NCBI GenBank assembly: GCA_011523565.1
Contig: WTGL01000055.1
Coordinates: forward strand, 1-34,250
Direction: 5' to 3'
Length of the DNA: 34,250 nucleotides
Origin: Acidobacteriota bacterium
Lineage (GTDB): Bacteria; Acidobacteriota; Thermoanaerobaculia; Multivoradales; Multivoraceae
The translations under genes and the position numbers were made by a program. Below are positions 11,038 to 33,590 of the stretch, one piece after another (the stretch's first letter is position 1; each line of letters starts with the position of its first letter). A model generated the notes under the pieces. It searched no databases, had not been told where the DNA came from, and saw only the letters and a program-made list of their open reading frames with translations.

Positions 11038-11168
11038 GGTTCTCGGGTTCGTGCCGTTCTCGCTCGTTTCGCGACCGGAAGACCGGCGCCATGGAGGCGG
11101 GAAGCGCGCGGGAGTGTAGCAGCCGTGCGGTACAGTGCATCCTGGTGGCGGCGTACAGGGAGAGTCCC

Positions 11169-11187
11169 CGCGGGCACGGTACCCGCG
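11169..11187 (+). other. GC-rich hairpin in leader of the propeller/cytochrome gene
   Basis: CGCGGG and CCCGCG flank a seven-base loop (11175-11181), ending 20 bases before the proposed GTG at 11208. It could affect translation start or be part of the divergent promoter region. No T-run follows, so it is not a standard terminator. Confidence 0.35.
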
Positions 11188-11207
11188 CTGGAACTCCCGG
11201 GTCGGCA

Positions 11208-14200
11208 GTGCAGCGGGGCCGCCGCTGGACCCTGGCGCCGCTAGCGACCGTTTCGGTTCTCGCCTGCGCTCCGCCGGTGCTCGAAGACGTACCGGCCGGC
11301 TTCGAACTCCACCCGGAGTTCAAGCTCGAGCTGGTCGCCGCGGAGCCGGTCGTGGTCGACCCGATCGACCTCGCCTTCGACGAACGGGCCCGGGCATTCG
11401 TGCTCGAACTCCCCGGCTACCCGGACATGAAGCGGCCGGCACGCATCGTGACCGTCTCGGACACGGACGGCGACGGACGATGGGATCGACGACGACTGTT
11501 CGCCGGCGATCTCGGCATGGCGGACTCCATCCTGCCCTGGCGCGACGGACTCCTGGTGGCAGCACCCCCCGACATCCTCTACCTGGAAGACGCTGACGGC
11601 GACGGGAAGGCGGATCGTCGCGAGGTGCTGCTCAGCGGTTTCGCCGAGGGCAACCCCCAGCACAACGTGAACGCGCTCCGGTACGGCCTCGACAACTGGG
11701 TGTACGGCGTGAACGGAGGCAATGGGGCCAGGCCGTTCTGGCCGGAGGCTCCGGAGAAGGCCATCGAACTCGGGCAGGACGACTTCCGGGTCGATTTCAG
11801 ATCCCGGCGCTTCGAGCCGACCGGCCGTGGCGCCGGCGGTTTCGGGATGACGTTCGGTGTCTGGGGCCGCTCCTTCGCCACCCACAACCTGGATCACCTG
11901 AGTCAGCTCGTGATCCCGCGCCGCTATCTCGGGCGGCTGCCGCCCTCGTGGCAGAGCGGCCGCCTCCGCCTGGCGGCCCATCCGGACGGAGGTCCCGCCG
12001 AGCTGTTTCCGATCGGCGTGCGCCAGACGCGGCCCAATCACCCGGAGCAGTCGAGCCGGTTCTCAGCCGCCTGTGCCGTGACGGCGTACGGCGGCGGCGC
12101 CTTCGACGGCGCGGCTCTGCCCGGCGAGTGGCTGTCCGTCTTCGTAGCCGATCCGTCGGCGAACGTCGTGCATCGCGCCGTGGTCGATGTGGAGGGTGCT
12201 TCGGCCAAAGCCGGCCGCGGCCGTCCCGGAGTCGAGTTCCTCGCCTCGACCGATCCGCTGTTCCGACCGGTCAACCTGCGCGTGGGCCCCGATGGCGCGC
12301 TCTACGTGCTGGACATGCACCGGGGCGTGATCGAGCACCCGGAGTGGATTCCCGATTCGGTCGAGGCCGCGCTCGATCTCTACGAGGGGGAAGACCGCGG
12401 GCGCGTCTACCGAGTCGTTCCGGCGCGCGGTCTGCCGGCCTGGGCGGCGGACGCGGGCGGCCTGGACCGGTCGCGGACCGCCGACCTCGCCCAAGCCCTC
12501 AGTCATCCGAACCGGTGGCGCCGCCTGACGGCACAGAGACTGCTCGTCCAGGAGCACGGCGCGGAGCCCCCGGCGGCTCTGGTGACGAGCCTCCGGGACC
12601 GCGTCCTCGAAACGGACAACTCCCTGGGGCGGCTCCATGCCCTGTGGTCCCTGGCAGGTCTCGGAGCGCTCGACCGGGCGACCCTCGAGGCTCTGCTCGG
12701 CGACCCGCATCCGGAACTTCGTCGAAACGCGGTGCTGGCCCTGGAGGAAGCGCTTTGGGGCGGCGCGCCGACCAACGGGTTCGCGAAGACGCTGGTGGGT
12801 CTGATCGGCGATCCGGAACCGGCGGTGCGGCTGCAGGCGATCCTCACCGCCGGCCTCCTGCTCGAATCGGAGGCGTACTTTGGGCCGGAGTTCGGCCGGT
12901 CGGTCGCCTCCGCGGTCGTGGCCGGAACGGCGCGCGCCGCGCCCGGGACACCCACATCGGCCGGCGTGGAGAACCTGGAGCGGCCGCAGCCCGAGCGCGA
13001 CGGGCCGTGGCTTCGCCTGGCGACGGTCGCGGTCCTGGCCGACGATCCGGTCGCCGCGCTGAGGCTCCTGCTCGCGTCCGCCGGGCCGGTCGACCTGGGG
13101 GGCGCGGACCTCGTCGAGCGGGTGGCCGCGCTTGTTCCGGCGGAACGGTTGGGCGAGATCGTCGGCGACTCCCTGGTCCTGCGCGCTCTGAGTGGGGCCG
13201 GGCCCGAGAGCGCCGGCACGGGTCGCGCGTTGCTGGCGGGGCTGACGGCGGCTGCCGGCGCCGGCAGCGCTGAGATCGTCGCGGCGGATCTCCTGGCGCC
13301 ATTGCGGCGCCTTCGCCGATCGAGCGACGATTCCCTCGCCGAGTCGGCCTGGCGCATGACCGCCGCTCTGGAGGTCGATGTGCCCGCGGAGGAGATCGCG
13401 CACCTTGACTGCGCCGGAGTGCGGGCAGCGAACGGAAACCGCGATGTGGGCGAGCGGCTCGAGGCTCTCGCGCTCTTCGGCCTTCGCCGACTCTGGCCCG
13501 GTAGCACAGAAGAAGCATCCGCTCCGTGCCCGGGCGGTGCAAGCCCCGGCGAGACGTTCGCAACCGGCTCCTGGCTGGAACAGATGGGTTCGTTGATGGA
13601 TGCCGGCCATCCGGCGCCGGTGCAGCGGGCGGCCATGGCGGAGCTTGCGGCGGCGGAGGAGGCAACGGTCACGGCCTACGTCGTCGATCGCTGGCCCTTC
13701 CTGGGGCCGGCCGCGCGAAGGGATGCCGGGAGTTATCTGATCCGGGGCAGGGGGCGGCACCGCGCTCTTCTCGACGCGCTGGAGAGCGGCCGCATCCGAC
13801 TCGGGGAGATGAACTTCATCCTGGAACGGCGGCGCTTCCTGCTGCGTTCGCCGGACCAGGACGTGCGGCGCCGCGCGGCGGCCCTGTTCGACGATGCCGG
13901 CGTCACGACGCGGGCCGAGGCGATCGCGGCGATGCGGCCGGCGCTCGAACTCGACGGCGAGCCGGAGCGGGGCGAGGCGCTGTTTCTTGAGCTCTGCGCG
14001 CGTTGTCACCAGAGCGGTGGTCTTGGTTTCGGTCCCGGCCCGGATCTCGCCGGCATCGGCCGCAAGAGCGGCGAGACCCTGCTGCACGACATCCTGGACC
14101 CGAACGCCGCGGTCGACGCCACCTACGTGAACTACATCGTGGAAACCGTGGAGGGCGAGGTCTTCTCCGGCATCCTCGCCGAGAGCTCCGGCAGCGGCGT

Positions 14201-14357
14201 GGTTCTGCGGGCTGCCGAGGACGCGGTGATCGAGGTCCCGGTTGAACGGATTCGGGAAGTGCGCAGCGACGGGCTCTCGATGATGCCCGAGGAACTCGAG
14301 GCGGGCCTCGAACCCGGGGACCTGGCCGATCTGCTGGCCTTTCTGAGCCGCGCCTGA
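11208..14357 (+). CDS. Lipoprotein with beta-propeller, HEAT-like repeats and C-terminal cytochrome c (PVC-type haem-binding protein)
   Basis: A protein of about 1049 residues resembling the large 'membrane-bound dehydrogenase' propeller plus haem-domain proteins first noted in Planctomycetes and Verrucomicrobia. The start at GTG 11208 gives a short basic n-region, a hydrophobic stretch and VLAC with Cys20 as a possible lipid-anchored cysteine; GTG 11145 and ATG 11091 are alternatives. Residues about 30-410 form the propeller ([22 protein letters not shown], repeated D-x-D-G-D-G loops, and later [19 protein letters not shown]). Residues about 420-900 are Ala/Leu-rich helical repeats of HEAT type. 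The C-terminus has a single haem c site, CARCH (Cys930, Cys933, His934), followed by the [25 protein letters not shown] segment of that haem-domain family. The substrate is unknown; sugar oxidation is often proposed for the family but not shown here. It is divergent from the selenoperoxiredoxin. Confidence 0.87.
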
Positions 14358-25703: not shown

Positions 25704-25729
25704 GGCGGAGGGTGCGGTACGATCCCGCC

Positions 25730-26611
25730 GTGCCCATCCGGCGAACACCGCTGCTGGTCGTGGCCGCTGCCCTCGTGGCGGCCGCCGGTTCGGGCCTGCT
25801 CACCAGAGCCCCGGCGCCGGGTCCGAACCCGCAGGTCGGAGTCCCCGACGACCGCCGTGACCCGCGCACACGCTACCGGCGCTCGCTGCCGCCCCAGGCG
25901 ATGAGGATGTTCGAGCGGTACCTGCCGCGTCCGGTCCATCCCGACGAGGTCCTGCGGGAGTTCTACTTCACCCGCCTGATCTACGGCGGCCAGAGATACA
26001 TGGGCGGCGCAAGCTGGTCGGTCGATTTCCCCAAGGCCGACCGCCAGTTCATGATCGGCCTCAAGAGGCTGCTCGACCAACTCGACGCCTACGACTACGA
26101 CAACGCGCTGCTGGCCACGGATCCGAAGCTCTATCGCTATCCCTTCCTCTACTCGGTGGAGGTCGGTTACATGATGCTGAGCCCGGACGAGCGCGAGCAC
26201 CTGCGCCGGTACCTGCTGGCCGGCGGCTTCTGGGTCATCGACGATTTCTGGGGCAGTTGGCAGTGGGCCAACCTGGAAAACGAGTTGTCCGCTCTCCTGC
26301 CGGAGTATCCGATCGTCGAGATTCCGCTGGACCACCCGATCTTCCACTGCTTCTACGACGTGGAGGAGATCCTCCAGGTGCCGAACGTGGGCCAGGGTCG
26401 GTACGGGGGACCGACCTGGGAGCAGGACGGATTCACACCGCACGTACGGGGCATCTTCGACGACCATGGCCGCCTGATGGTGGTGATCAACTGGAACACG
26501 GATCTCGGCGACGCCTGGGAGTGGGCGGAAGATGAGTGGTACCCGGTGCGGTTCTCCCACTACGCGTACCAGATGGGCGTCAACTTCGTCGTCTACGCCA
26601 TGTCGCACTGA
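25730..26611 (+). CDS. DUF4159 domain protein, copy 1
   Basis: A 293-residue exported protein. GTG 25730 gives a compact signal (MPIRRTPLLVVAAALVAAAGSG); GTG 25712 is an alternative six codons upstream and abuts a GGAGG. The DUF4159 region runs from about residue 75 to the end: FYFTRLIYGGQRY, then DKYPFLYS-like strands, LRRYLLAGGFWVIDDFWG, a DHPIFHCFYD segment, and the terminal LMVVINWNTDLGDAWEWAEDEWYPVRFS followed by MGVNFVVYAMSH. The domain is thought to have a flavodoxin/GATase-like fold; no catalytic residues are known to me. The same domain recurs at the other end of this gene block (32790), in the same orientation. Genes of this type commonly sit beside MoxR and VWA proteins. The role is unknown. 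Confidence 0.86.
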   Translation: MPIRRTPLLVVAAALVAAAGSGLLTRAPAPGPNPQVGVPDDRRDPRTRYRRSLPPQAMRMFERYLPRPVHPDEVLREFYFTRLIYGGQRYMGGASWSVDFPKADRQFMIGLKRLLDQLDAYDYDNALLATDPKLYRYPFLYSVEVGYMMLSPDEREHLRRYLLAGGFWVIDDFWGSWQWANLENELSALLPEYPIVEIPLDHPIFHCFYDVEEILQVPNVGQGRYGGPTWEQDGFTPHVRGIFDDHGRLMVVINWNTDLGDAWEWAEDEWYPVRFSHYAYQMGVNFVVYAMSH

Positions 26612-26654: not shown

Positions 26655-28970
26655 ATGGCAGGCCTTTTCGAGTTCCTCTTCAAGTATCGGCCGTCCCTGT
26701 TCGAGGAAGGCCGGCTCGCCCTGGCCGCTCCGGGCTGGATGCAGGTTGCGGCGCTGGTTGCCGGCGGCGCCCTCGTGTTCGCGGCCTTCACCTATCGCCG
26801 GATGCGGCCGGGTAGTGGGTCCCGCCCCGAGCGCTACCGCTGGCTGCCGCCGACCTTGCGGTCGCTGGCGATCGGCGTTCTGGTCGTGTGCCTGCTGCAG
26901 CCGGCCCTCGTGCTGTCCACCGTCGTGCCGCAGGAGTCCTTCGTCGGCGTCCTGATCGACGACTCGGGCAGCATGGCGATGCCCGACGAGGAGGCGGCAG
27001 AGGACGGCACCCGCGCCGGGGCGGTCCGGGAGGCGCTCTCCGGGCAGCCGGGGTCGCTGCTGGAACTCCTCACCGGGCGCTTCCAGGTCCGGCAACTCGC
27101 CTTCGGCCGCGGCGCTGAACGGATCGAGTCCGTAGACCAGCTCCGGTTCGCCCGCCCCGACAGCCGCATCGGCGAGGCCTTGCTCGCCGCTTCGGACGAA
27201 CTGGCCGGTCTGCCCCTGGCGGGTCTCGTCGTCTTCTCCGACGGCGCGGACTCCGAGCCGGCCGAACTGGGAGACGCCCTCCTCGCGCTCAAGGCTGCGG
27301 GGACGCCGGTACATGCGGTCGGTGTCGGGCGGCCGCGGCTCGCAAGGGACATCGAGGTGTCGCGAGTCGTGGCTCCGCGCCGGGTGCTCGAGGGTTCGAC
27401 CGTCGAGGTCGAGGTCACCCTGAGTCAGACCGGGTTCGGTGGCCGCAGCGTCAACCTCGAAGTCGAGGACGACGGACGCATCGTGAACGTGGAGCCGGTG
27501 ACCTTTCCACGCCGAAGTTCGGCGGTCACGGCGCGGGTGATGTTCGCGGCCACCGACGAGGGCGCCCGGGAATTCCGGTTTCGGGTGGCCGCCCAGCCCG
27601 GAGAACAACTGACCCGGAACAACGAGCGGACGGCTCTGGTCGAGGTGAGGAAGAGGCGGGAGAAGATCTTCTTCTTCGAGGGCGAACCGCGCGATGAATC
27701 GAAGTTCCTGCGTCGGGCGGTCCAGTTCGACGAGAACCTCCACGTGGTGTCGATGACCCGGCAGGCGGCGAACAAGTTCTACGGCATCAACTTCGACGAG
27801 AACACGAAGCGCTTCGACGGCTTCCCAACCCGCCGGGAGGACCTCTTCGAGTACCAGGGCGTCATTCTGGGCAGCATGGAGGCGAGCTTCTTCACCCACG
27901 ACCAGATGCGGATGCTGGTCGACTTCGCCGCTCAGCGTGGCGGAGGCGTGTTGCTGCTCGGCGCGCGCCGGTCCTTCTCCGAAGGCGGCTTCCTCGGGAC
28001 GCCAATCGCCGAACTCTCGCCGCTCGTCCTCTACGAGATCGAGCCGGCGTCGGGAGACGGCCGCCCTCCACTGATCCACGACCTGCAACTGGAGTTGACG
28101 CCCCAGGGTCGCGCCCATCCCGCCATGCTGCTGCGCGACGACCGCTCGGAATCGAACGAGCTGTGGCCGACCTTGCCGCGGCTCTCGGCGTACCAGCGGG
28201 CCACCGAGCTGAAGGCCGGCGCCACCGCGCTGCTTCTGGCGGAGACCCCGATGCACAGGGAGCCGCTGGTCGCGCTGGCGTACCACCGGATCGGTCGCGG
28301 TCGTGCGATCGCCTTCACGCCGCACGATTCCTGGCACTGGCAGATGAGCGCCGAGATCGCGCTCGAGGACCAGACCCACGAGCGGCTCTGGCGGCAGATG
28401 CTCCGTTGGCTGGTGTCCTACGTGCCGGACCGGATCGAGGTGGAAACGGACCGGGACCGGTTCGAGCCCGGCAGCACGGTCGCGCTGCGCGCCACGGTTC
28501 GGGATGCGGCGTTCAGGGAAGTCAATCGGGCGCAGGTGACAGCAGCGATCGAGTTGCCGTCCGGAGAGGAGGTCGAAGTGCCTCTCGACTGGTCCGTGGA
28601 GCGCGACGGCGAGTTCGTCGGCTCGTTCGTGGCCGCGGAACGGGGTCACTACCGGGTCGAGGTCGACGCGCGGTCGGAGGGGGAACTGCTTGGCGTCGCG
28701 GCCTCGCGCTTTGCCGTCGACAACCTGAACGAGGAGCTCTTCGGCGCCGCGCGCCGGGATTCGGTGCTCCAGAGGATCGCTCGTGAGACCGGGGGTCGGC
28801 GGTACGGGCTGGACGAGATGGACAGCCTCGTGGAGGATCTTTCGGTCAGCCGCGAGGGGACGACGGTTCGTGAGGCGCGTGATCTGTGGGACATGCCGAT
28901 CCTGTTCCTGCTGCTGGTCGTCTTCCTGGGCGGTGAGTGGGCGGTTCGGCGCCGTCTGGGGATGTCGTGA
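26655..28970 (+). CDS. Membrane-anchored VWA protein with glutamine amidotransferase-like region
   Basis: A 771-residue membrane protein. Two N-terminal helices (about residues 28-46 and 68-90) precede a VWA domain starting at FVGVLIDDSGSMAMPD, where Asp102, Ser104 and Ser106 form an intact MIDAS D-x-S-x-S. A beta-sandwich-like stretch with CARDB-type character follows (about 225-330), then a class I glutamine amidotransferase-like region (about 335-460: KIFFFEGEPRDESKFLRR, ending near GGGVLLLGARRSFSEGGF) in which no catalytic Cys is visible. The C-terminal part has further beta-rich segments, and a last helix (about 747-761) ends in WAVRRRLGMS. The topology implies that the large middle part lies on the outer side. 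Such VWA proteins are typical clients or partners of MoxR ATPases. Its stop overlaps the next start (GTGA). ATG 26655 has only a weak ribosome site. Confidence 0.87.
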   Translation: MAGLFEFLFKYRPSLFEEGRLALAAPGWMQVAALVAGGALVFAAFTYRRMRPGSGSRPERYRWLPPTLRSLAIGVLVVCLLQPALVLSTVVPQESFVGVLIDDSGSMAMPDEEAAEDGTRAGAVREALSGQPGSLLELLTGRFQVRQLAFGRGAERIESVDQLRFARPDSRIGEALLAASDELAGLPLAGLVVFSDGADSEPAELGDALLALKAAGTPVHAVGVGRPRLARDIEVSRVVAPRRVLEGSTVEVEVTLSQTGFGGRSVNLEVEDDGRIVNVEPVTFPRRSSAVTARVMFAATDEGAREFRFRVAAQPGEQLTRNNERTALVEVRKRREKIFFFEGEPRDESKFLRRAVQFDENLHVVSMTRQAANKFYGINFDENTKRFDGFPTRREDLFEYQGVILGSMEASFFTHDQMRMLVDFAAQRGGGVLLLGARRSFSEGGFLGTPIAELSPLVLYEIEPASGDGRPPLIHDLQLELTPQGRAHPAMLLRDDRSESNELWPTLPRLSAYQRATELKAGATALLLAETPMHREPLVALAYHRIGRGRAIAFTPHDSWHWQMSAEIALEDQTHERLWRQMLRWLVSYVPDRIEVETDRDRFEPGSTVALRATVRDAAFREVNRAQVTAAIELPSGEEVEVPLDWSVERDGEFVGSFVAAERGHYRVEVDARSEGELLGVAASRFAVDNLNEELFGAARRDSVLQRIARETGGRRYGLDEMDSLVEDLSVSREGTTVREARDLWDMPILFLLLVVFLGGEWAVRRRLGMS

Positions 28971-30019
28971 GCCATCGAGGATGGACCGCACTGCTTGTGG
29001 CGGCGGTACTCGTCTGCGCGCTGGCATCGGGTCCTCTCGGCGCGGAAAGCCACCTCCTGGTGGTGACCGGAGTCGGGGGCGAGCAGGTCTACACCGAGCG
29101 CTTTCACGCCTGGGCAACGCGGGTGGTGGAAGCGGCGCTGGAGGCGGGTCTCAGCGAGGAAAGGGTGGTCTATCTCGCGGAACGTCCGGACCTTGATCCG
29201 GAACGGATCCGGGACCGGTCCACGGGTGAGAACCTGCTGGCGGAGATCGAGGCGCTTACGAAGCGGTCGAGCGCGGGCGATACGGTGTGGATCCTGCTCT
29301 TCGGACATGGCAGCGGCTCGGCGGGCCCGCCGCGATTCAACCTTCCGGGGCGGGACCTCGTGGCCGAGCAGTACGCCGCCGCGCTCGAGCCGCTCTCGGA
29401 CCGGCGCGTCGTGTTCATCAACACGAGTTCCGCGTCGGGCGGCTTCATTGCGCCGCTGGCGAAGGAGGGGCGCGTGGTGATCACCGCCACCAGGTCGGGC
29501 GCGCAGGGCAACGAGGCGCTGTTTGGCGGCTACATCGCCGAGGCCTTCGACGGTGGTGCGGGAGACATGAACAAGGACGGGCGCACGTCCGCCCTCGAGG
29601 CCTTCGAGTTCGCTCAGCGCGAGGTCGACCGCTACTACCGGCAGGCCGGACAGATTCGCACCGAGCACGCGCTGCTCGAGGACAACGGTGACGGTACGGG
29701 GAGCCTGGAACCGGCGGGCCTCGCTGCGGACGGGCCGGTCGACGGAAGACTTGCGAGTCTCGTGCTTCTCGGCGAGGAAGCACTTCCGGCCGCGCTGACC
29801 GAGGAGAGTCGCGAACTTGCCGAACGGCGTGGCGACATCGAGCGGCGGATCGACGAACTGCGTCTGCAGCGCGAGAGCCTCGACGAGGACGTCTATCTCG
29901 AGGAACTGCAGGAACTGATGGTCGAACTCGCCCTGGTGGACCGTGAGCTGGGCGAATCCGGGGCGAAGAGCGAAGAAGCCGAGGACTCCGACGGGCCGAA
30001 CGGGGAACCGGACCGGTGA
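28967..30019 (+). CDS. Exported caspase/legumain-fold (C13-like) protein with Ser in place of the catalytic Cys
   Basis: A 350-residue protein with a signal peptide (TALLVAAVLVCALASGPLGA, about 26 residues). The core resembles clan CD peptidases: AGDTVWILLFGHGSG carries His114 in the H-G motif, and RRVVFINTSSASGGFIAP occupies the nucleophile strand. Where clan CD enzymes read D/E-x-C-x-S-G, this protein has Ser155 (N-T-S-S-A-S-G), so the cysteine is absent and the protein may be inactive or use serine. A perfect EF-hand loop follows (Asp200, Asn202, Asp204, Gly205, Ser208, Glu211). The C-terminus is a charged coiled coil (about 270-330). GTG 28967 overlaps the upstream VWA stop, and its own stop overlaps the next start. 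The family call rests on motif pattern and fold-level similarity. Confidence 0.75.
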   Translation: MSHRGWTALLVAAVLVCALASGPLGAESHLLVVTGVGGEQVYTERFHAWATRVVEAALEAGLSEERVVYLAERPDLDPERIRDRSTGENLLAEIEALTKRSSAGDTVWILLFGHGSGSAGPPRFNLPGRDLVAEQYAAALEPLSDRRVVFINTSSASGGFIAPLAKEGRVVITATRSGAQGNEALFGGYIAEAFDGGAGDMNKDGRTSALEAFEFAQREVDRYYRQAGQIRTEHALLEDNGDGTGSLEPAGLAADGPVDGRLASLVLLGEEALPAALTEESRELAERRGDIERRIDELRLQRESLDEDVYLEELQELMVELALVDRELGESGAKSEEAEDSDGPNGEPDR

Positions 30020-32790
30020 GCGAGCGACGGCATTCTGCTGGGCTGCAAAGAGTCGAGTCGCGGCGTCCGCGCCGCGCTGACGCACCGAAACAGGCCTGTT
30101 TCATGCAAGTCCTGGTCCTCGTTCTCGTGTTTGGCGCCTGGTCTCCGCTGACAGCCGCGGCCCAGGACGAAGCGGTCTCGCTTCAGGACATCGAGCAGTG
30201 GATCCTGACCGGCCGCTACGGCGACGCGCTGGAGCAGCTTGACGCGAGGTCCGGTCAAGCGGACGATGCCGGGGCGCTTCGGCTGCGCGTGGAGGCGTTG
30301 ACCTCGATGGGTCGCTACGAGGACGCGGCTCGTGCGTTCGACGGCGCCAACGCGGCAGGCCTCGGTCTCGGCGTACTGCGTGGAAGGGTGGCACTCCTTG
30401 CCGGGGACCGGGAACAGGCCGGTCGCTGGTTCGAAGAGGCGCGGGCCGCCCGGGGCCCCGACGGCCTGGTCGCTGCGTTCGAGCTCGCGCTGCTCCTGTG
30501 GGAACGGGGAGAGATCGAGGAGGCGACCAGGGGCTTCTACGGGATGATCGACGCCTACAACCGGGGCGCGGCGGATACGGCGGCGGAGCTTCTCGCCGTC
30601 GGGCGAGCCTGCCAGTTGCTCGGGCGGGACGATCCTGAGCTCTTCAAGGATGCGCTGCGCGCCTACGACGAGGCGGTGGCGCTCGATCCTTCCTGGCCTT
30701 TGCCTCGTGTACGGATCGGCGAACTGTTCCTCGAGAAGTACGACAGCAGTCAGGCGCGTTCGTCGCTGGCCGATGTGCTGCGGATGAATCCGCGCCACCC
30801 GGAGGCCCTCCTCGCCATGGCGCGGACGATGCGGTTCGACGGCGATCCGCGGGCCCAGGCAACGCTCGACGCCGCTCTCGACGTCAACCCCAACCTGACG
30901 CCGGGGCGCGTCTTCCAGGCTTGGCTCCATCTCGGAGCGGAGCGCTTCAGGGAGGCCCGGGAAGAGGCCGGGAAGGCGCTTGACGTCGATTCCGGTTCGC
31001 TCACGGCGCGAACGCTGCTGGCTGCGGCGGCCTTCCTCGAGGGGCGCGACGAGGACTTCGCGCGTCTCCGCGACGGCGTGCTGGCCGACAACCCCCGCTA
31101 CGCCGATCTGTTCAACGATCTGGCCGATGCCAGCGCCGACAACCGGCTCTACCCGCAGGCGCGCGACTTCGCCGCGGAGGCGGTGCGGATCGATCCGAAG
31201 TCCTGGCGCGGTTACGGACTGCTGGGCATGAACCAGCTCCGGCTGGGCGATATCGACGCCGGCCGGGCGAACCTGGAAACCTCCTTCGCGGGCGATCCCT
31301 ACAACGTCTGGACCAAGAACACGCTCGACCTGCTCGACACGTTCGGCGAGTACCGGATGGTGGAGAGCGAGCACTTCGAGTTCCACATCCACGATCGGGA
31401 GGCCGATCTCCTGGCCCCGTACATGGTCGAGCTGGCCGAGGAGGCCTGGACGAAGCTTTCCGAGCGCTACCGTTTCGAGCCACCGACGCCGATCCGGGTG
31501 GAGGTCTATCCGTCGCATGCCGACTTCTCGGTTCGGACCGTCGGACTGGCGGGGCTCGGCGCCCTCGGTGTGTGCTTCGGGCCGGTACTCGCCCTCGATT
31601 CGCCCTCGGCGCGCCAGGTCGGCCACTTCAACTGGGGCGGCACGCTGTGGCACGAGATCGCGCACACCTTCACCCTGCTGGCCACCGACGCGAAGATCCC
31701 GCGGTGGTTCACCGAAGGCCTGTCCGTCCTTGAGGAACGCCGGGCGCGGCCCGGCTGGGGCGACGACGTGCAGGTGGGTTTCCTCACGGCGCTCCGCGAC
31801 GGCGAACTGCTGGGCATCGCTGAGATCAACGACGGTTTCGTGCGACCGAAGTTCCCGAACCAGATCGCGCTGTCTTACCTCCAGGCCTCCCTGATCAGCG
31901 AGTGGATCGAAGAGAACTACGGCTTCGGCGCCATTCGCTCGATGCTGGCGGGCTATCGCGACGGCAAGAGTACGGAGGACGTGTTCGACGAGGCGATGTC
32001 GCTTTCGCTCGACGACTTCGACGAGCGTTTCTTCGGCCACCTTCGCGAGCGCTTCGGCGGCGCCATGGCGGCGCTCGGCGATGCTCCGTCCGAGCCCGAC
32101 GAGGAGGATCAGGACGGGGGCGAAGGCGGACCGTCGCGCGCCCCGACCCGGAACCCCTTTGAACGCCGCGAACCGAATCTCGAGCAGTTGGCCCTGGCGG
32201 CGATGGAGAACCCGGACGACTTCAGAATCCAGATGACGTACGGCTACGCCCTGTTTCGCGAGGAGCGGTTCGCCGAGGCGGAGGAACCCCTCGTGCGCGG
32301 CCGCGACCTGTTCCCGGAATACGTCGGCTCCGGAAACGCCTACACTCTGCTGGCCGAGATTTACCGGCAGCAGGAACGCGAGGAGGAGGCGATCGAGGCG
32401 CTGATGACGCTGGTGGCAAGCAACGAAACGGCCTGGGATGAGCATCTGGCGCTGGCTGAATTGCTCGGCGCCGCCGGCCGCGAGGAAGAGGAGGCCGAGG
32501 TTCTCGAGCGGTCGCTCTACATCTCGCCATACGATCTGGGCGTGCATCGCCGGCTCGCCGAACTCGCCTTCGCTTCCGACCGCTTCGCCCTCGCCGTGCG
32601 CGAACGGGCCGCCCTGGTCGCCCTCGATCCACCCGACCGTGCGGTTGCGCTCTACGAGCTGGCGCTGGCGCAACACCGTGCAGGCCGGCAGGAGAGCGCG
32701 CGCCGGACGGTACTGAGGGCTCTCGAAGTGGCTCCGGGTTACGACCCGGCGCAGGAACTCCTGCTCGAGCTGGTGGGGAAGGGCTCGTGA
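30016..32790 (+). CDS. Exported TPR protein with HExxH gluzincin peptidase domain
   Basis: A 924-residue protein. GTG 30016 overlaps the previous stop (GTGA) but gives a long basic n-region before the signal (VLVLVLVFGAWSPLTAAAQ); ATG 30103 gives a normal signal peptide and is a real alternative. Residues about 50-440 are TPR repeats (for example YGDALEQLDARSG and ALRAYDEAVALDPSWPLP). The peptidase_MA-like domain spans about 450-690: MVESEHFEFHIHDRE, then LWHEIAHTFTLLA with His546, Glu547 and His550, and WFTEGLSVLEER supplying Glu567 as the third zinc ligand, 17 residues after His550. A linker rich in Asp/Glu/Gly and a second TPR block (about 715-920) follow. The active-site set looks complete, so it is probably a working zinc peptidase in the periplasm or at the surface, with the TPRs binding partners. 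Confidence 0.88.
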   Translation: MSERRHSAGLQRVESRRPRRADAPKQACFMQVLVLVLVFGAWSPLTAAAQDEAVSLQDIEQWILTGRYGDALEQLDARSGQADDAGALRLRVEALTSMGRYEDAARAFDGANAAGLGLGVLRGRVALLAGDREQAGRWFEEARAARGPDGLVAAFELALLLWERGEIEEATRGFYGMIDAYNRGAADTAAELLAVGRACQLLGRDDPELFKDALRAYDEAVALDPSWPLPRVRIGELFLEKYDSSQARSSLADVLRMNPRHPEALLAMARTMRFDGDPRAQATLDAALDVNPNLTPGRVFQAWLHLGAERFREAREEAGKALDVDSGSLTARTLLAAAAFLEGRDEDFARLRDGVLADNPRYADLFNDLADASADNRLYPQARDFAAEAVRIDPKSWRGYGLLGMNQLRLGDIDAGRANLETSFAGDPYNVWTKNTLDLLDTFGEYRMVESEHFEFHIHDREADLLAPYMVELAEEAWTKLSERYRFEPPTPIRVEVYPSHADFSVRTVGLAGLGALGVCFGPVLALDSPSARQVGHFNWGGTLWHEIAHTFTLLATDAKIPRWFTEGLSVLEERRARPGWGDDVQVGFLTALRDGELLGIAEINDGFVRPKFPNQIALSYLQASLISEWIEENYGFGAIRSMLAGYRDGKSTEDVFDEAMSLSLDDFDERFFGHLRERFGGAMAALGDAPSEPDEEDQDGGEGGPSRAPTRNPFERREPNLEQLALAAMENPDDFRIQMTYGYALFREERFAEAEEPLVRGRDLFPEYVGSGNAYTLLAEIYRQQEREEEAIEALMTLVASNETAWDEHLALAELLGAAGREEEEAEVLERSLYISPYDLGVHRRLAELAFASDRFALAVRERAALVALDPPDRAVALYELALAQHRAGRQESARRTVLRALEVAPGYDPAQELLLELVGKGS

Positions 32791-33590
32791 TGCGCACGAG
32801 AAGAGGACGTCGCGTACTGGCGGGTCTTGTCGTGCTCGCCGTGGTGGCCGGCGCCCTGCTCGCTCGCGACGACTTCTGGCGGGCGCCCAAGGTGGAGACG
32901 CCGTCGTACCCCTACTCGGGCGGGTTCACGTTCGCCCGGATCAAGTTCGAACCGACGTGGTGGGGCCCCGGCGACTTCATGTGGGGCCTCGACCTCAAAT
33001 GGAACCACGACTATCCGCTGGCGGAGCGGAACTTCACCCGGATCGTGGACGAGATGACCCACATCGACGTGTTCACGGGCGGCGGCAACGTGATCGAGCT
33101 GACCGATCCGCGGCTGTTCGAGCATCCCTGGGCCTACCTCTGCGAAGCAGGCTTCTGGAATCCCACGGAGGAGGAACTCGCCAACCTCCGCTCGTACCTG
33201 TTCAAGGGCGGCTTCCTGGTGGTCGACGACATCTTCGACCGGCCCGGCTATCCGATTTACTGGGAGAACACGGAGCGGCAGATGGGTCGCCTCCTGCCCG
33301 GTTACGAGCTCGTGCCGATGACGATCGACCACCCGGTGTTCCGGGCCTTCTTTCCGCTCGAAGACCTCGACTTCGACCTCGACCTTCCCGGCATCTACCC
33401 CGTGCGGGGGAAGATCTACGGCGTCTTCGAAGACAACGACCCGACCCGGCGCCTGATGGTCGCCATCAACTACAACATGGATATCGGTGACTTCTGGGAA
33501 TGGTCGGAGTACGCCCTCTACCCCGTGGACATCACCCAGAAGGGCTTCAAGCTGGGCGTGAACTACCTGATCTACGGAATGACTCACTGA
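32790..33590 (+). CDS. DUF4159 domain protein, copy 2
   Basis: A 266-residue protein with an N-terminal membrane or signal segment ([19 protein letters not shown]). The DUF4159 region covers most of the rest: [14 protein letters not shown], then [21 protein letters not shown], the [11 protein letters not shown] segment and a [20 protein letters not shown] terminus ending [11 protein letters not shown]. It is recognisably paralogous to the copy at 25730, above all in the GGF(L/W)V(I/V)DD and GDxWEW blocks. ATG 32790 overlaps the upstream stop as TGATG and has GGGGAAGGG six bases before; GTG 32787 is also in frame. It is immediately followed by the MoxR gene, the neighbour this domain typically has. 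The function is unknown. Confidence 0.88.

Follow-up and report, generated by a model that had tools for sequence, protein, structure and literature searches.

The protein encoded directly downstream of a vWA gene in this stretch belongs to a bacterial family of legumain-like proteins in which the catalytic cysteine is missing from all 179 members analysed and the catalytic histidine is invariant. We show by computation its fold, its residue conservation and its operon. Our preferred reading, which we consider probable, is that the dead legumain-like domain acts in the periplasm as a non-catalytic subunit for binding or docking within a membrane complex formed with a vWA protein and, in most lineages, a metallopeptidase. 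Residue conservation suggests that the protein is catalytically inactive, and the gene context points to the adaptor role.

The gene and its predicted legumain fold

The window, i.e., the whole stretch of 34,250 nt analysed here, is part of a MAG of 3.72 Mb (88.7% complete) whose nearest named relatives are Acidobacteriota MAGs, part of them labelled Thermoanaerobaculia. The features discussed below are listed in Table 1. The GTG start of the gene shares a GTGA overlap with the stop of the upstream gene; another GTG start at 28937 is possible and less likely. GC3 of the ORF is 0.81 and relatives of the same genus, at 69-93% identity, keep an open frame with the exception of one frameshifted copy, so that the ORF can be taken as a real gene. 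A reading or frame artefact was ruled out by the conservation of the frame among intact relatives. The exceptional copy lies in genome G016, where frame changes break the gene into pieces (L021, L025, L026, and L031), either by sequencing error or because the copy is decaying. When the sequence was re-read, the coordinates, start and residue numbering of the original prediction were found correct, and the sole Cys of the protein (Cys17) indeed lies inside the predicted signal peptide.

Table 1. Features of the pseudo-legumain gene and its neighbours in the window.
Feature	Position	Strand	Remark
DUF4159 protein, upstream	25712..26611	+	
vWA + GATase1-like protein (partner 1)	26655..28970	+	Start placed from relatives; open frame begins at 26532
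Pseudo-legumain gene, 350 aa	28967..30019	+	Start GTG 28967
Predicted signal peptide, about residues 1-26	28967..29044	+	Hydrophobic N-terminus read from sequence
His114 codon, catalytic-His position	29306..29308	+	His in 179/179
Ser155 codon, catalytic-Cys position	29429..29431	+	Ser 148/179, Cys 0/179
Ser157 codon, Ser of C-x-S-G in Cys relatives	29435..29437	+	Ser in 177/179
EF-hand-type loop D200-M-N-K-D-G-R-T-S-A-L-E211	29564..29599	+	Sequence, family conservation
Conserved E-D-N-G-D-G motif, residues 238-243	29678..29695	+	
C-terminal helical pair, residues 279-337	29801..29977	+	Predicted, conserved in family
TPR protein with HExxH (gluzincin-like) peptidase domain (partner 2)	30016..32790	+	
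DUF4159 protein, downstream	32787..33590	+	

The protein scores above the cut-off of no Pfam or NCBIfam model, and the NCBIfam search gave no match to it. The closest model, Pfam Peptidase_C13 (PF01650), aligns with residues 100-190 at E = 0.0011 and 19 bits, below the curated cut-off of 22.8 bits. Among 60 diverse relatives, 22 match C13 at E ≤ 0.01 (best 5.8e-7), and a profile made from 60 relatives matches metacaspase-4 (E = 2.3e-5) over a short stretch around the HG motif. Peptidase_C14 gave no match for the protein and none in the window's genome (88.7% complete), which also contains no second C13 match. A single-sequence search against solved structures returned chance matches only. An AlphaFold2 model was built from eight sequences with a mean pLDDT of 76.7; in residues 31-160 the ten-residue blocks are mostly near 90 or above. 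When Foldseek was run with this predicted structure, the best 40 matches were all legumain/asparaginyl endopeptidase (best E 6.9e-9). VIA-align, for which rows at most 1 Z apart count as tied, gave legumain at Z 22.6 (rmsd 2.4, 206 residues), metacaspases up to Z 21.2, GPI transamidase at 20.1 and caspases at 16-17. The spacing from His114 to Ser155 is 41 residues, equal to that between the catalytic His148 and Cys189 of human legumain (PMC4506564). In two Cys-bearing bacterial relatives, L035 (G-S-C-Y-S-G) and L107 (E-P-C-F-S-G), the Cys aligns with position 155. The fold match, the family profile and the Pfam C13 matches together rule out a chance resemblance. A clan CD fold nearest to legumain is therefore supported for the modelled protein, and the caspase/legumain-like assignment made from the letters of the window is backed by structure prediction and fold search, which led to legumain and not to a fold outside the clan.

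Conservation of the active site and the calcium loop

The family was analysed as 179 distinct members from Acidobacteriota, Gemmatimonadota, and Verrucomicrobiota. In the window's protein G-H-G occupies residues 113-115, and N152-T-S-S-A-S-G158 puts Ser155 at the Cys of C-x-S-G, which agrees with the earlier proposal of a serine at the catalytic-Cys position. Six residues are invariant in all members (Gly113, His114, Asp130, Asp200, Glu211, and Glu233), and Ser157 and Thr175 are found in 177 and 176 of them. Position 155 is occupied by Ser in 148 members, Thr in 10, Glu in 6, Ala in 5, Asn in 4, Gly in 3, Pro in 2 and Asp in 1; of the 31 non-Ser members, the 21 with neither Ser nor Thr fall in several separate branches. 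The proposed alignment of homologs thus gave a split answer: His114 is conserved throughout, while Ser155 is not fully conserved, and the situation in which neither residue is kept was not found.

Changes were counted on a FastTree tree of 176 members with the motif columns left out, so the counts are approximate. Position 155 shows at least 16 switches into or out of Ser and, with Ser and Thr pooled, at least 11 to or from other residues, compared with no changes at His114, Asp130, Asp200, Glu211, and Glu233 and two at Ser157. Counted over all states, position 155 changed 21 times versus 34-36 times for positions 153, 154, and 156. The Ser155 codons are drawn from both boxes, AGY and TCN, with at least 11 switches between them. 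These numbers indicate that Ser at 155 is preferred and not required, since it changes less than its flanks and survives codon-box switches, yet can be replaced. Members without Ser155 were found in operons that include the TPR metallopeptidase as well as in the operon type that lacks it.

One could propose from the same data a serine-type clan CD enzyme of a Bat-type envelope complex, in which an early Cys-to-Ser exchange left a working Ser155-His114 dyad, used for hydrolysis or transpeptidation, in the majority that bear Ser155, the window's protein included, and was lost secondarily in the non-Ser members. The prevalence of Ser155 beside an invariant His114, its retention through codon-box switches and its slower change relative to the flanking positions would all fit such an enzyme, which would be a natural serine-type clan CD enzyme if true. 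We consider it unlikely, because Ser/Thr was exchanged with non-nucleophile residues in at least 11 separate changes while His114 and the operon stayed the same, and because clan CD enzymes are normally inactivated when their Cys is replaced by Ser. Repeated change of Ser155 next to a fixed His114 speaks for a pseudopeptidase and is hard to square with a conserved serine protease. Between the two options of the original prediction, we accordingly favour the binding pseudoprotease over the serine-based variant, position 155 being neither Ser nor Thr in 21 of the 179 members. A further point that tells against a pseudopeptidase is that His114 never changes; the commonest pseudo-orthocaspases have lost both dyad residues (PMC6426788). 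The data are nevertheless read most simply as a pseudopeptidase that favours a small polar residue at 155 and uses the His and the cleft for a purpose other than Cys or Ser catalysis. With the shape, the His and the predicted calcium loop kept and the Ser lost repeatedly, the protein most likely binds proteins and does not cut them.

Other residues near the site might be asked to do the chemistry. A relocated nucleophile, either Ser157 or, in one subgroup, Cys156, could take over from position 155 and work with His114; Ser157 and His114 are both nearly or fully invariant, and Cys156 occurs in 8 members. We find this very improbable, as the equivalent of Ser157 is also present in the Cys relatives with C-x-S-G (L035 and L107). 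In legumain and metacaspase motifs the Ser of C-x-S-G is present and is not the nucleophile, so the conservation of Ser157 is explained by structure. The Cys at 156, beside the lost nucleophile site, goes with Asn, Thr or Ser at 155 in its subgroup (L108, L167, L169, L191, L195, and L196). Cys-independent ligation via aspartimide was also considered. The Cys-independent ligase activity of legumain requires Asp147, and the D147G mutant is without it (PMC4506564); the Asp147 position corresponds to Gly113 in all 179 members, and this route was rejected.

The EF-hand loop noticed earlier was verified at residues 200-211. Its positions 1, 3, 5, and 12 are kept among the 179 members as D200, D/N202, D/N/S204 and E211, Ser208 is found in 167 of them, and an E/D-D-N-G-D-G motif follows the loop in most. 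The loop is predicted to bind calcium and the protein is probably calcium-stabilised, judging from these sequence features. Similar loops are present in the Cys relatives L106 and L107, hence the calcium loop is not new to the Cys-less family. The suggested C-terminal coiled coil held as to its helical nature and is predicted as two conserved helices (279-300 and 307-337). The retention of the predicted calcium loop across the family supports the idea of a calcium-linked scaffold. Taken further, it could mean that the protein is purely structural, a rigid spacer, stabilised by calcium and set between the vWA protein and its partners, with a cleft that binds nothing, in line with the invariant calcium-loop residues Asp200 and Glu211 and the conserved helical pair. 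This is somewhat easier to accept than the serine-type enzyme and is still doubtful: His114, Asp130, and Thr175, placed in or near the cleft by homology, are as conserved as the calcium ligands, which suggests that the cleft itself is used.

Gene neighbourhood and distribution

Partner 1 has an intact MIDAS motif (D-x-S-x-S) in its vWA domain and membrane segments at both ends; in nearly all homologs the nucleophile elbow of its GATase1-like domain is devoid of Cys. Since this domain has also lost its nucleophile Cys, the cluster contains two enzyme folds without the catalytic residue. A vWA/GATase homolog lies directly upstream in 154 out of 163 loci with enough flank, and the TPR/MA gene (partner 2) lies downstream in 105 out of 172. 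The HExxH motif of partner 2 is kept in every homolog covering that stretch, so the cluster contains an apparently active protease. DUF4159 genes border this conserved set. Further downstream in relatives are MoxR, DUF58, and BatA genes (all three in L032 and L206, two in L029 and L079, BatA in L101), with DUF4175 as well in L206; the window's contig stops before their place. In an Acidobacteriota group (L081, L083, L087, L090, L094, and others) S-F-P-F replaces S-G-x-F; its genes adjoin the vWA/GATase gene without the TPR metallopeptidase, and in several genomes the gene of this group is a second copy. Elsewhere in the window, positions 11091-14357 encode a protein with DUF7133, HEAT repeats and a cytochrome c domain.

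The family occurs in at least three bacterial phyla. Homologs were detected in 117 of 396 Acidobacteriota genomes, in 102 of 200 genomes from the phylum of the Gemmatimonadota relative L032, and in 21 of 240 from the phylum of the Verrucomicrobiota relative L033; roughly half of these 21 match weakly and fall in a diverged group made up mostly of large proteins. In Verrucomicrobiota a more diverged copy of the domain is found in open frames of about 800-900 aa (L120, L121, and L123-L128), joined to transglutaminase-like domains in L120 and L124 and also to DUF3857 in L120; the copy in L123 seems to be without the catalytic His too. The loss of the catalytic Cys and the frameshifted copy in one genome of the genus could be read as signs of a decaying gene without function. 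The open frame, the strong residue conservation and the gene order kept in three phyla already refute this, and we give it practically no weight.

Relation to known systems and possible role

The family resembles C13 legumain (PF01650) in its best fold match, the spacing of 41 residues, the weak Pfam match and S-x-S-G in place of C-x-S-G, and differs from it by the missing catalytic Cys, the Gly at the Asp147 position, a Pfam score below the cut-off, an EF-hand-type loop and the C-terminal helical pair. Cys-to-Ser pseudo-caspases are already known in bacteria. The C14 pseudo-orthocaspases (PMC6426788; PMC3501461) are likewise bacterial clan CD pseudopeptidases with a broken His-Cys dyad and a Cys often changed to Ser; in bacterial metacaspases the dyad is kept in 84% and Ser accounts for 43% of the Cys substitutions (PMC3501461). 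The pseudo-orthocaspases have mostly lost the His too (Tyr-Ser, Phe-Ser, and Tyr-Ala), whereas the present family has lost the Cys alone. They are C14 by sequence and found mainly in Alphaproteobacteria and Cyanobacteria, in contrast to the present case, with no C14 match for the window's protein, a best fold match to C13, and family members in Acidobacteriota, Gemmatimonadota, and Verrucomicrobiota. With MoxR, DUF58, and BatA in the clusters of relatives, the locus is similar to Bat/MoxR-vWA operons. The classic Bat gene set is not known to include a pseudo-legumain. Work on Leptospira did not confirm that Bat proteins have a role in oxidative stress (PMC3557215). MoxR-vWA ternary conflict systems also combine MoxR and vWA proteins with caspase-fold domains, and about 70% of the caspase-like domains in the effector position are inactive (PMC7159879); there the domain is fused to VMAP or vWA, whereas the pseudo-legumain of the Bat-type cluster stands alone as an exported protein. 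Among the neighbours scanned with Pfam, none received a VMAP label. Our literature search, thin on subscription journals, found no description of a C13-like pseudo family tied to Bat operons, nothing relevant on bacterial C13/legumain pseudo-forms, and no paper combining MoxR and DUF4159. A widespread Cys-less C13-like family with an invariant His, tied to a Bat-type cluster, seems to be new.

For the pseudopeptidase adaptor we propose the following sequence of events and interactions. Loss of the ancestral Cys would date to the base of the family or earlier, while the cleft (His114, Asp130, Ser157, and Thr175) and the predicted calcium site may have stayed under strong selection. Judging from its signal peptide and the inferred topology of the membrane-anchored vWA protein, the pseudo-legumain would be periplasmic, with the vWA/GATase protein and the metallopeptidase as its neighbours. 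There it may form a complex with the membrane-anchored vWA/pseudo-amidotransferase encoded directly upstream, which in most lineages could also include the TPR/HExxH metallopeptidase encoded downstream. Within it the pseudo-legumain might recognise or hold a polypeptide, or dock the complex, via the conserved cleft and the C-terminal helices. MoxR ATPases are thought to be chaperones of vWA proteins in MoxR-vWA systems, and a chaperone module of MoxR, DUF58 and BatA would work at the membrane and on its cytoplasmic side.

Bat/MoxR-vWA operons are common among bacteria. In three phyla the vWA protein of a Bat-type cluster is accompanied by a conserved dead protease, and the same vWA protein bears a dead amidotransferase domain, often beside an apparently live metallopeptidase. 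This yields the testable hypothesis that the pseudo-legumain recognises a substrate or partner, and the family offers a large natural data set on the reuse of a protease fold once catalysis is lost.
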